DNA of 64,000 nucleotides, from positions 1 through 64,000 of the forward strand of contig NZ_JALU01000024.1 in assembly GCF_000525775.1 (NCBI RefSeq). Direction: 5' to 3'. This DNA is from Mogibacterium timidum ATCC 33093 (GTDB lineage: Bacteria > Bacillota > Clostridia > Peptostreptococcales > Anaerovoracaceae). The position numbers were made by a program, and so were the translations under genes. The notes beneath the pieces were generated by a model. It made no database searches, was not told the origin of the DNA, and saw only the letters and a program-made list of their open reading frames with translations. Below are positions 22,395-25,974 of the stretch, piece after piece; positions within the stretch are counted from its first letter, which is position 1; every line of letters starts with the position of its first letter.

Positions 22395-23429
22395 ATGAGA
22401 GCTGATTTTTTATACAAATTAAGAGTTCTTTCGGGAGCAAGATTCTCTAAGCTTAACGAGGTTACAACTGAAATTAACAAGAGATGCGGAAAGAGTAAGG
22501 CCGGCATTATCAAGGATATTTTTCACTGCTACAGGAAGTTTGGAAGTGGATATTATGATTATATAATCTATCATTTTTATGAGCTCGACGACAGTATGCG
22601 TGACACGTACATGACTCGTATGCGCAGCAAGAAGCTCGTAACATTTCTCAACGATCCTGAGATGGCAAAGCTTTTTGATAACAAAAATCAGTTCGATGAG
22701 GTTTTCAAGGAATTTATCTCCAGAGATTACCTGGATGCTGTAAATTGCGATTTAACGGAGGCGACACGCTTCTACAATGAAAATGAAATCGGATTCGCTA
22801 AGATGCTTGACCTTGCGTGTGGCAAGGGGGCGGAAATCATCAGGATGGCCGATTTTGAAAATGCTGAGGCGTTCTACAATTACATCAAGGAAAAGGGATT
22901 TGGTGTAGTAGAGGAATATCTGATCAATCACGATAAAATTAGAGAGGTATACAAGCCGGCTCTCAACACCATGCGAATGATTACTATCATCGGGGACGAT
23001 GGGCAGCCGCACTTGTTTTTTGCGGCACAAAAATTTGGAGTACACGGACGTTTCATTGATGTTCATGGAATTCATGCGCCGATTGATCTCGAGACAGGAG
23101 TTGTACATTTTCCATTCCACAGCGGTAATACCGATACAGATTTGATATACACAAAGCATCCTGATACCGGATATGACCTTACTGAGTATGAGGTTCCGAT
23201 GTTCCGGGAGGCTAAGGATATGATTCTCAAGGCTGCCATGAAGGTCCCTGAGATGAGATATGTTGGCTGGGATGTTGCAGTTACAAATAAGGGACCCAAG
23301 ATTGTAGAAGGCAACGATTACACAGCATATGACTACATGCAGCTGCCACAGCAGAACCCCGGCAGAGTCGGTGTGATTCCTGATATCCTTAAGCTCGTTC
23401 CGAGCTTCAAGGATGAACTGTACAAGTAA
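22395..23429 (+). CDS. Sugar-transfer-associated ATP-grasp protein
   Basis: A 344-residue protein that resembles the sugar-transfer-associated ATP-grasp family (PF14397 type). The C-terminal half shows the ATP-grasp pattern: RMITI, then a hydrophobic strand, GVHGRFIDVHG, and near the end a WDVAVTNKGPKIVEGND segment that holds the metal and ATP ligands. Such enzymes join a carboxylate to an amine or thiol at the cost of ATP. Relatives are found in surface polysaccharide loci. No signal peptide or membrane segment is seen. It has its own promoter and stands 63 bases before a MurT-like gene, so a role in modifying a wall or polymer precursor together with that pair is plausible. The substrate is unknown. 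Confidence 0.75.
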   Translation: MRADFLYKLRVLSGARFSKLNEVTTEINKRCGKSKAGIIKDIFHCYRKFGSGYYDYIIYHFYELDDSMRDTYMTRMRSKKLVTFLNDPEMAKLFDNKNQFDEVFKEFISRDYLDAVNCDLTEATRFYNENEIGFAKMLDLACGKGAEIIRMADFENAEAFYNYIKEKGFGVVEEYLINHDKIREVYKPALNTMRMITIIGDDGQPHLFFAAQKFGVHGRFIDVHGIHAPIDLETGVVHFPFHSGNTDTDLIYTKHPDTGYDLTEYEVPMFREAKDMILKAAMKVPEMRYVGWDVAVTNKGPKIVEGNDYTAYDYMQLPQQNPGRVGVIPDILKLVPSFKDELYK

Positions 23430-23492: not shown

Positions 23493-24875
23493 ATGGGTAA
23501 ACTGCGTTACTTTTGTGCACTTATAATTGCAAAGCTTTCGATTATAGCGCTGAAGATGACCGGGCATAAGGGAACAAACTTTCCCGGAATAGTTGCAATT
23601 AAAATATGTCCAAATTTTCTCAAGTACATCAAGCTGCCTAACAAAATAATCGGAGTAACGGGTACTAACGGCAAGACTACTTGTTCCAACTTGCTGAGAG
23701 ACTCGCTTGCTGTGCTCGGAGAGAGCGTACTCAACAACTCCGCCGGTTCCAATACTATCACCGGCATCACTGCATCACTGATTACCAGCGTCAATGTGTT
23801 CGGCAAGCAGAGATATGGGACGGCAGTATTCGAGATTGACGAGCTGTCATCAAGGCGGATTTTTCCATATGTGCACATAGATCATCTGATAGTTACTAAC
23901 TTATCTCGCGACTCCATCATGCGAAATGCTCATCCTGAATACATTCGTTCAGTGCTGGAGGCACATATCGATAAATCAACTAAGCTCATTTTAAATGCAG
24001 ATGATCTTGTATCTTCGCAGCTATGTCCTGACGGTGACAGGGTGTTTTTTGGCATCGACCTGCTCAAAAGTGATAAAACTGAGTGCACCAATCTTATTGA
24101 CGATTGTCCAATCTGCCCGGTATGCAATAATAAATTAAAATATACAAGGAATAGATACAGCAATATAGGAAGAGCATACTGTCCTAATTGTGATTTCAAG
24201 TCTCCTGATGCTGATTATCTCGCTACAGACATTAATCTTGAATCAATGACTATGAATATCGAGCTTGAGGGGGAAAGCTGTACATTTAGGCTGTTTAACA
24301 ACGGAACCTTTAACATTTATAATGAGGTTACATTAATAGCAGCGCTTAGCGAACTCAGATATTCAGTAGATGAAATCAAGGCTGCAGTAGACAACGTAAA
24401 TATTACAAAAGAACGTCTTAACCTGTTTAAAGCCGGAGACATCTGTCTTAGCTCAGTACTCTGCAAGGATAGAAATGCTTACGCAAGCTCCCGTGTTTTT
24501 GAATATATAGATGCACAGCCGGGAGACAAGGAGATCCTGCTATTCAATAACAATTTTCAGGATGATGTCAAATGGTCGGAGAACACGTGCTGGCTCTATG
24601 ACGCTGATTTTGAGCTGTTGCGGGACGATAGAATAAAAACCATCATAACTACAGGTTCACGCGGACTTGATTTCAAGCTCAGACTCTTAATGGCCGGAGT
24701 GCAGCCTGACAGAATTAAGTTTGTACGGGACCCTCTATCATGCATTGATGATTTGAAGTTTGCAAAGGGAGAGACGATATATCTCCTTTATGGAACTGAC
24801 CCGTTATCGCCTGCTCGCAAGGTGAGAGAAAAGCTGGAGAAATATCTTAAAGACATGGAAAGGTTAACTAAATGA
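23493..24875 (+). CDS. MurT-like Mur ligase (lipid II isoglutaminyl synthase subunit homologue) with altered motifs
   Basis: A 460-residue Mur ligase homologue of the MurT type. The N-terminus follows the MurT pattern (AKL...GTNFPG), the P-loop is TGTNGKTT at residues 56-63, and a MurT-specific zinc ribbon is present with CPVC (208-211) and CPNC (230-233). The C-terminal DUF1727 region is recognisable through WLYDADFE and ITTGSRGLDFKLRL. In MurT-GatD this enzyme activates the D-Glu of lipid II for amidation. Here two conserved motifs differ: the NLFRDQxDRYGE-like segment reads NLSRDSIMRNAHPE (136-149), and the DNxxDGRDxSW loop reads NNNFQDDVKWSENTCW (352-367). AAAGG is 14 bases from the ATG, which is long. 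The stop overlaps the GatD-like start by 4 bases. Confidence 0.85.
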   Translation: MGKLRYFCALIIAKLSIIALKMTGHKGTNFPGIVAIKICPNFLKYIKLPNKIIGVTGTNGKTTCSNLLRDSLAVLGESVLNNSAGSNTITGITASLITSVNVFGKQRYGTAVFEIDELSSRRIFPYVHIDHLIVTNLSRDSIMRNAHPEYIRSVLEAHIDKSTKLILNADDLVSSQLCPDGDRVFFGIDLLKSDKTECTNLIDDCPICPVCNNKLKYTRNRYSNIGRAYCPNCDFKSPDADYLATDINLESMTMNIELEGESCTFRLFNNGTFNIYNEVTLIAALSELRYSVDEIKAAVDNVNITKERLNLFKAGDICLSSVLCKDRNAYASSRVFEYIDAQPGDKEILLFNNNFQDDVKWSENTCWLYDADFELLRDDRIKTIITTGSRGLDFKLRLLMAGVQPDRIKFVRDPLSCIDDLKFAKGETIYLLYGTDPLSPARKVREKLEKYLKDMERLTK

Positions 24876-25588
24876 TTATTGAAATGCTCTATCCCGAGCT
24901 AAGCAATCTATATGGTGATTCTGCCAACATCAAATATCTGCAGGAATCACACCCTGAGACCAAGATTATCGAGACACACCTAGGTGATAAACCTTTCTTT
25001 ATTGACGGAAAGGTTGACCTTGTCTATCGCGGCACGCTTACCGAGCACGGGCAGCAGCTATTTATCGAAAATGCTGAGCCGTACGTTGGAGGATTTAAGA
25101 CTGCCATTGAACGCGGGCAACATTTCCTCGTGACGGGGAACGCTGTTGAGCTCTTTGGCAACTATATTATAGATAAGTCCGGAGAAAAGATTGACTGTCT
25201 GGAGTTCTTTGATTTTCATGTAGAGCGCGACATAGTCGCAAAAAGATTCAATTCGCTGTATGTAGGCACGTACGCGGATCTCAAGGTTGTAGGGTTCAAG
25301 AGTCAGTTCTCGCAAGGCTTTTATGATAGTGAAATACCGGCTCTTTTTGATACAACAAGAGGTCCGGGCTTCAACCCTGATATCAAACAGGAAGGTATCC
25401 ATTATAACAATTTTATGGGTACATATCTGCTCGGTCCGCTGTTGATACTTAACCCGGATTTCACGAAGGCTTTGGCTGCTGAATTAGGTATAGGCGGTTT
25501 TACGCCTGCGTATTACGACATAGCCAGAGAAGCGTATGCGTTCAGACTCAATCAATATACCGATGCCAGCACCGGATTCTATTACTAG
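24872..25588 (+). CDS. GatD-like class I amidotransferase homologue lacking the catalytic Cys and His
   Basis: A 238-residue protein with the GatD (CobB/CobQ-type glutamine amidotransferase) framework: EMLYPELSNLYGDSANIKYL at the N-terminus and MGTYLLGPLLILNP near the C-terminus. In canonical GatD the nucleophile lies in AICGG and the catalytic His in GTYLHGPLL. Here the same places read LVTGNAVELFG, with Gly89 (codon GGG at 25136) in place of Cys, and GTYLLGPLL, with Leu187 (codon CTC at 25430) in place of His. The frame is open throughout, so this is not an obvious pseudogene. It is translationally coupled to the MurT-like gene. It probably cannot hydrolyse glutamine and may be a structural partner, or the complex may use another amine donor. 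Confidence 0.85.
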   Translation: MIIEMLYPELSNLYGDSANIKYLQESHPETKIIETHLGDKPFFIDGKVDLVYRGTLTEHGQQLFIENAEPYVGGFKTAIERGQHFLVTGNAVELFGNYIIDKSGEKIDCLEFFDFHVERDIVAKRFNSLYVGTYADLKVVGFKSQFSQGFYDSEIPALFDTTRGPGFNPDIKQEGIHYNNFMGTYLLGPLLILNPDFTKALAAELGIGGFTPAYYDIAREAYAFRLNQYTDASTGFYY

Positions 25589-25781: not shown

Positions 25782-25863
25782 GTGGCTGTGGCGGAATGGC
25801 AGACGCGCATGCTTGAGGGGCATGTGGGAGACCGTGCTGGTTCGAGTCCAGTCAGCCACACCA
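25782..25863 (+). tRNA. tRNA-Leu(GAG)
   Basis: The acceptor GTGGCTG pairs with CAGCCAC, followed by A and an encoded CCA. The anticodon stem GCATGC/GCATGT encloses the loop TTGAGGG with anticodon GAG. A long variable arm (GGGAGACC region) marks a class II tRNA, and TTCGAGTCC is the T loop. Length is 82 bases. Confidence 0.93.
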
Positions 25864-25887
25864 TTTTTTTTACAAAAAATAAGATTT

Positions 25888-25974
25888 GCCGGCGTGGTGG
25901 AATTGGCAGACGCGCGGGATTCAAAATCCCGTGGTAGAAATACCGTATGGGTTCGACCCCCATCGCCGGCACCA
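25888..25974 (+). tRNA. tRNA-Leu(CAA)
   Basis: The acceptor GCCGGCG pairs with CGCCGGC, then A and encoded CCA. The anticodon stem CGGGA/TCCCG encloses a loop with anticodon CAA. The long variable arm (TGGTAGAAATACCGT) and TTCGACC T loop fit tRNA-Leu. It lies 24 bases after the first tRNA and no terminator follows before yajC. Confidence 0.94.

Follow-up and report, generated by a model that had tools for sequence, protein, structure and literature searches.

The MurT/GatD pairs of S. aureus, S. pneumoniae and S. pyogenes are the closest described systems to the gene pair analysed here. In the S. aureus complex, the third catalytic residue of GatD is supplied by MurT (Asp349), the C-terminal helix of GatD contacts MurT, and glutamine-driven activity is lost or severely reduced in MurT-D349N and in GatD-C94S or C94G (PMC6113224); Arg128 of GatD acts in glutamine capture (PMC6085368). 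The S. aureus MurT/GatD_C94G enzyme makes no use of glutamine but uses NH3 at pH 8.5, and neither MurT nor GatD is active alone (Munch et al., PMC3266927).

The window, a stretch of 64,000 nucleotides from Mogibacterium timidum ATCC 33093, encodes on its forward strand, as are all features given below, a GatD-like protein (P0001; 24872–25588) assigned from its open frame, its fold match and the NCBIfam GatD models, which it matches with E values of 1e-14 to 2e-15 and with scores (57 and 54 bits) below the equivalog cut-offs of 450 and 400. Its AlphaFold model (pLDDT 94.4) superposes on S. aureus GatD (6gs2) with Z 26.7 and an rmsd of 2.4 Å over 228 residues, and the six best VIA-align structures are all GatD (Z 24.9–26.7), followed by HisH at 16.8; the predicted fold is that of a class I amidotransferase, nearest to GatD. 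Read from the sequence, the frame runs uninterrupted for 238 residues and is coupled to the preceding murT-like gene by an ATGA overlap (24872–24875), in which its start lies inside the murT-like stop and four bases are common to both genes. In phmmer and family alignments with S. aureus and streptococcal GatD, Gly89 (codon GGG, 25136–25138, in the motif LVTGN) aligns with the Cys of CGG, the site of catalytic Cys94 (S. aureus numbering), and Leu187 (codon CTC, 25430–25432, in GTYLLGPLL) with the His of HGP, the site of catalytic His189. A preliminary description of this locus had reported both replacements and the intact, coupled frame, and rereading the codons and aligning staphylococcal and streptococcal GatD bore it out. 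The alternative that it had raised, another Cys and His in the active site, is not borne out: the family alignment, with 29 close homologues of P0001, has no invariant Cys or His, so that a relocated catalytic pair is not suggested, and we reject it. Nor is the GGGxDxEQ loop conserved in P0001, which reads G54-T-L-T-E58-x-x-Q61, with two of the three Gly gone and G54, E58 and Q61 retained; in other class I amidotransferases the Gly-Gly-Gly loop is the oxyanion site. P0001 almost certainly lacks glutaminase activity.

The partner gene (23493–24875; Pfam MurT_C, 1.5e-20) is the sole MurT_C match in the genome, and the predicted model of its product best matches S. pyogenes MurT (Z 33). Present in the protein are the MurT_C domain, an intact P-loop (GTNGKT, within GTNGKTT), the Mg/ATP glutamates, including the Glu108 equivalent, and the zinc ribbon. 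The site of the triad Asp349 (by alignment, S. aureus MurT numbering) is occupied by Asn364 (codon 24582–24584), ADGRD-TSWIYD of S. aureus MurT reading here as SEN364-TCWLYD. Since the triad is changed in both GatD and MurT and the ATP site is intact, the glutaminase appears to be gone from both subunits and the ligase not, and the MurT-like protein and P0001 very probably make up a live ligase. Two tRNA-Leu genes (gag and caa; 25782–25974) lie between the gatD-like gene and yajC, and the open reading frames listed there are translated tRNA genes.

Homologues were sought in related genomes and in three wider sets: the class (391 genomes), the order to which an Erysipelotrichaceae relative belongs (148) and an actinobacterial order (198). 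From all matches, a subset of 152 distinct GatD proteins was scored at the two catalytic positions. Both Cys and His are present in 62, neither in 86, Gly with His in four and Cys without His in none, a ratio (86:62) that is not the natural frequency because the proteins were partly picked for similarity to P0001. In the dead GatDs the nucleophile is almost always replaced by Gly, mostly within T-G-N, and subtypes can be told apart by what replaces ENHG/S: KSQF (type A, to which P0001 belongs), VNK or INK (type B), QIQM (type C) and smaller groups. Within the set of relatives, type A occurs in 21 genomes, intact GatD in 11 and both in none; in the genome of P0001 itself, one search with P0001 and one for the MurT_C family each found this GatD/MurT locus only, and we reject a coexisting intact GatD. 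The MurT partners have changed with their GatDs: the Asp349 site holds Asp in 60 of 60 partners of intact GatDs, and in the 86 partners of dead ones it holds Asn (42), Asp (18), Glu (14), Thr (9), Leu (2) or Ala (1), a change in 68 of 86. Dead pairs have, in place of the MurT loop DNxADGRD, a longer loop that carries an insertion and differs from type to type. The P-loop and the Glu that binds Mg (Glu108 equivalent) are retained in nearly all MurTs whose sequence spans them.

In a MurT tree whose root was not inferred, one branch (SH-aLRT 99–100) has every sampled Firmicute dead pair to the same side of it, whether the Asp349 loop is included or left out. The exception is L140, which sits on a long branch within the canonical rows and marks a separate loss; a further loss lies in an actinobacterial group (L239–L244). 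As intact forms occur across Firmicutes and Actinobacteria, loss is the simple reading of this history. The predicted loss of glutaminase is common to a large, ancient family of bacteria from the gut and mouth; the preliminary description was right about the loss itself and too narrow in scope, for the change is shared by this family and takes in MurT Asp349, the GGG loop and a remodelled MurT loop.

Several further observations concern individual members. The L140 GatD paralogue (genome G160) has Gly for the nucleophile Cys and retains the His, and the same genome has an intact GatD (L131). Separate nucleophile losses are seen in Actinomycetales, with Gly and His in L239, L241 and L244 and Gly and Gln in L242 and L243; 122 of the 198 sampled genomes of this order have no GatD match. 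A GatD-like protein of genome G007 (L058:9154-10020) carries an Ala/Asp-rich insertion of about 40 residues, and an intact MurT/GatD pair lies beside an M15 peptidase flagged as vanY-like on the Leifsonia shinshuensis plasmid NZ_CP043642.1 (L253:2724-5673). Several relatives have two dead MurT/GatD pairs (L050:5329-11463, L057:80-5061, L043/L042, L045/L044 and L049/L048), sometimes with an ATP-grasp gene between them, and this doubling suggests two related reactions.

Equal change is found in related genomes, including that of the Mogibacterium pumilum type strain (G001, of the same genus, which we take to be M. pumilum NZ_CP016199.1). Between Mogibacterium species the P0001 gene has diverged by 0.19 per non-synonymous site and by about 0.85, a saturated value, per synonymous site, and because the former is far below the latter the gene is under purifying selection. 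Conservation is highest at the former active site, whose columns average 3.25 bits in type A (2.22 overall) and 3.18 bits in type B (2.07 overall), values reached by none of 5000 random sets in either type. The new letters at this site in type A are T88, G89, N90, K143, S144, Q145 and F146. Arg125 (codon 25244–25246), the counterpart of the glutamine-capturing Arg128, is retained, this position being Arg in 97% of type A, 94% of type B and 96% of canonical proteins. In the C-terminal helix of the family R225 is invariant and A221 and Y222 are nearly so. The conservation pattern indicates that the former glutaminase pocket of type A is rebuilt and not decayed. Conservation and purifying selection support the earlier proposal that a protein without glutaminase chemistry has been kept for another job, and of the three jobs then suggested, two still stand, use of ammonia and use of a different nucleophile; a purely structural role is disfavoured, as the old pocket remains the most conserved region of P0001.

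Upstream of the pair lies a gene for a PF14397 ATP-grasp protein (22395–23429; Pfam, 3.2e-33), a probable functional partner for which no credible PDB sequence match was found. Of the 21 type A genomes of the surrounding group, 18 have such a gene adjoining the dead pair, compared to none of the 11 genomes with an intact pair (Fisher p 3e-6, uncorrected for kinship). Its placement varies: it may precede or follow the pair, converge on it, or be flanked by two pairs. The gene is absent in three type A genomes (G014, G494 and G085) and in G227/G489, and in G407 and G491 it lies apart from the pair; we therefore regard it as a frequent and not an essential partner and reject the ATP-grasp protein as a universal one. 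Clustering of flanks found no neighbour common to the other dead types. An MnmA-like gene comes next after the dead pair, with a glmM-like gene behind it, in the two genomes that we take for those of E. limosum and A. woodii (L174:6573-9722 and L173:5897-9082).

Our favoured explanation, which we consider about evenly poised between right and wrong, is that the pair is a MurT-type ligase with a non-catalytic yet obligatory GatD subunit, P0001, joining an amine from a source other than glutamine hydrolysis. The MurT-like protein would use ATP to phosphorylate a carboxyl, by family precedent the D-Glu α-carboxyl in lipid II, which is the probable acceptor, and the activated carboxyl would then be joined to an amine of other origin. 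The P0001 pocket (T88-G89-N90, K143-S144-Q145-F146 and Arg125) would serve, without cleavage, as a binding site for an amino acid or as a gate. The PF14397 enzyme would belong to this pathway too, perhaps extending the D-Glu branch by another residue, as in group B peptidoglycan. That a dead GatD can be obligatory to a live ligase is argued by the S. aureus C94G pair, which uses NH3 and in which neither subunit works alone.

The amine itself may well be an amino acid, as in a group B-like bridge, which we think somewhat likelier than free ammonia. In group B walls of the Schleifer-Kandler scheme the D-Glu α-carboxyl bears an amino acid or bridge; the peptidoglycan of Acetobacterium is of group B, and we know of no identified enzyme for the bridge step at this carboxyl. 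Two genomes that we take to be those of Acetobacterium woodii and Eubacterium limosum have a related dead type, subtype C, as the only GatD detected (P0001 is subtype A), and Eubacterium is listed with group B2α peptidoglycan (PMC11382707). Our lean towards an amino acid stems from this co-occurrence, the rebuilt pocket and MurT loop, and the linked ATP-grasp ligase. The more specific proposal, that dead pairs are amino-acid ligases starting the interpeptide bridge at the D-Glu α-carboxyl (the group B step), with GatD turned into a non-cleaving amino-acid or gating subunit, is put forward tentatively. Counting against the favoured reading are the genomes, some of them type A, in which the ATP-grasp gene is missing, the 18 dead pairs that still have Asp at the 349 site, and the group B link itself, which concerns two sister genera of presumed identity and subtype C, not A. 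Moreover, GatD Cys94 and the ATP phosphate are reported to be more than 20 Å apart even in a modelled closed form (PMC6113224), so that passing an amino acid directly from one to the other would be difficult. Among the papers searched, none gave a peptidoglycan structure for any Mogibacterium relative, and none described a Cys-less GatD or a group B bridge enzyme.

Ammonia-dependent amidation is a somewhat unlikely alternative, in which D-isoglutamine in lipid II would still be made, from free ammonia, with an ammonia-rich habitat or amino-acid fermentation making glutamine needless. The C94G result is the direct precedent for ammonia and not for an amino acid: with a substitution equal to that in P0001, the S. 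aureus enzyme can use NH3 or NH4Cl to amidate lipid II at pH 8.5, a reaction for which GatD is required, but does not use ammonia at pH 7.5 (PMC3266927). The relatives searched carry an intact or a dead pair and never both, as if one had replaced the other, and Asp136 and Arg140 of the S. pneumoniae MurT loop, whose replacement lowers activity (PMC6085368), are retained. However, ammonia would leave unexplained why an ATP-grasp gene is linked to the pair, why the MurT loop was rebuilt and why the new pocket residues are conserved, and this carboxyl probably bears an amino acid in E. limosum and A. woodii.

We judge it unlikely that P0001 is a scaffold or sensor, stabilising MurT or binding glutamine uncleaved to report nitrogen status, or that the pair's acceptor is other than lipid II. 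The Arg128 equivalent, retained without a nucleophile, would fit a sensor, and the invariant R225 and near-invariant A221 and Y222 lie in the helix that touches MurT in S. aureus (PMC6113224), but a pure scaffold would not need the conserved pocket, and every characterised MurT/GatD pair has lipid II or lipid I as its substrate (PMC3266927, PMC6113224, PMC6085368). A decaying relic or sequence artefact has nothing in its favour but the catalytic loss itself and is practically untenable, chance, pseudogene and sequencing error being ruled out by the like change in independent genomes, purifying selection, the nearly invariant TGN and intact frames.

Automatic annotation labels such proteins glutamine amidotransferases or hypothetical, and if glutamine is not hydrolysed, predictions of peptidoglycan chemistry would be wrong for many Firmicutes of the gut and mouth. 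The dead pairs provide a concrete candidate gene set for modification of the D-Glu α-carboxyl in group B and related walls, and the P0001 pair, as a natural counterpart of the C94G and D349N laboratory mutants, could reveal why MurT still needs a dead GatD.

Compared to known systems, the P0001 pair shares with GatD/MurT of S. aureus, S. pneumoniae and S. pyogenes the fold (Z ~25–27 for GatD and 27–33 for MurT), operon order, coupling, P-loop, Glu108, zinc ribbon, Arg128 equivalent and GatD C-terminal helix, but lacks Cys94, His189, MurT Asp349 and the GGG loop, has the DNxADGRD loop replaced, and differs further in its new T-G-N and K-S-Q-F motifs and ATP-grasp neighbour. Like P0001, the S. 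aureus C94G mutant has Gly at the nucleophile position, loses glutamine use and still needs the subunit, whereas it retains His189 and Asp349, and its pocket and loop are unaltered. In mammalian carbamoyl phosphate synthetase I, which uses free ammonia, a dead glutaminase domain persists beside a live synthase; the amidotransferase part of this enzyme, like P0001, lacks the catalytic Cys, but synthase and product are different, and the P0001 pair has further changes, at the His, at the Asp supplied by MurT and in the oxyanion loop. In archaea with MurT-like proteins and no GatD at all (PMC11915815), the MurT family apparently works without a glutaminase, as here, but in the pair described here GatD has been kept, under strong constraint.
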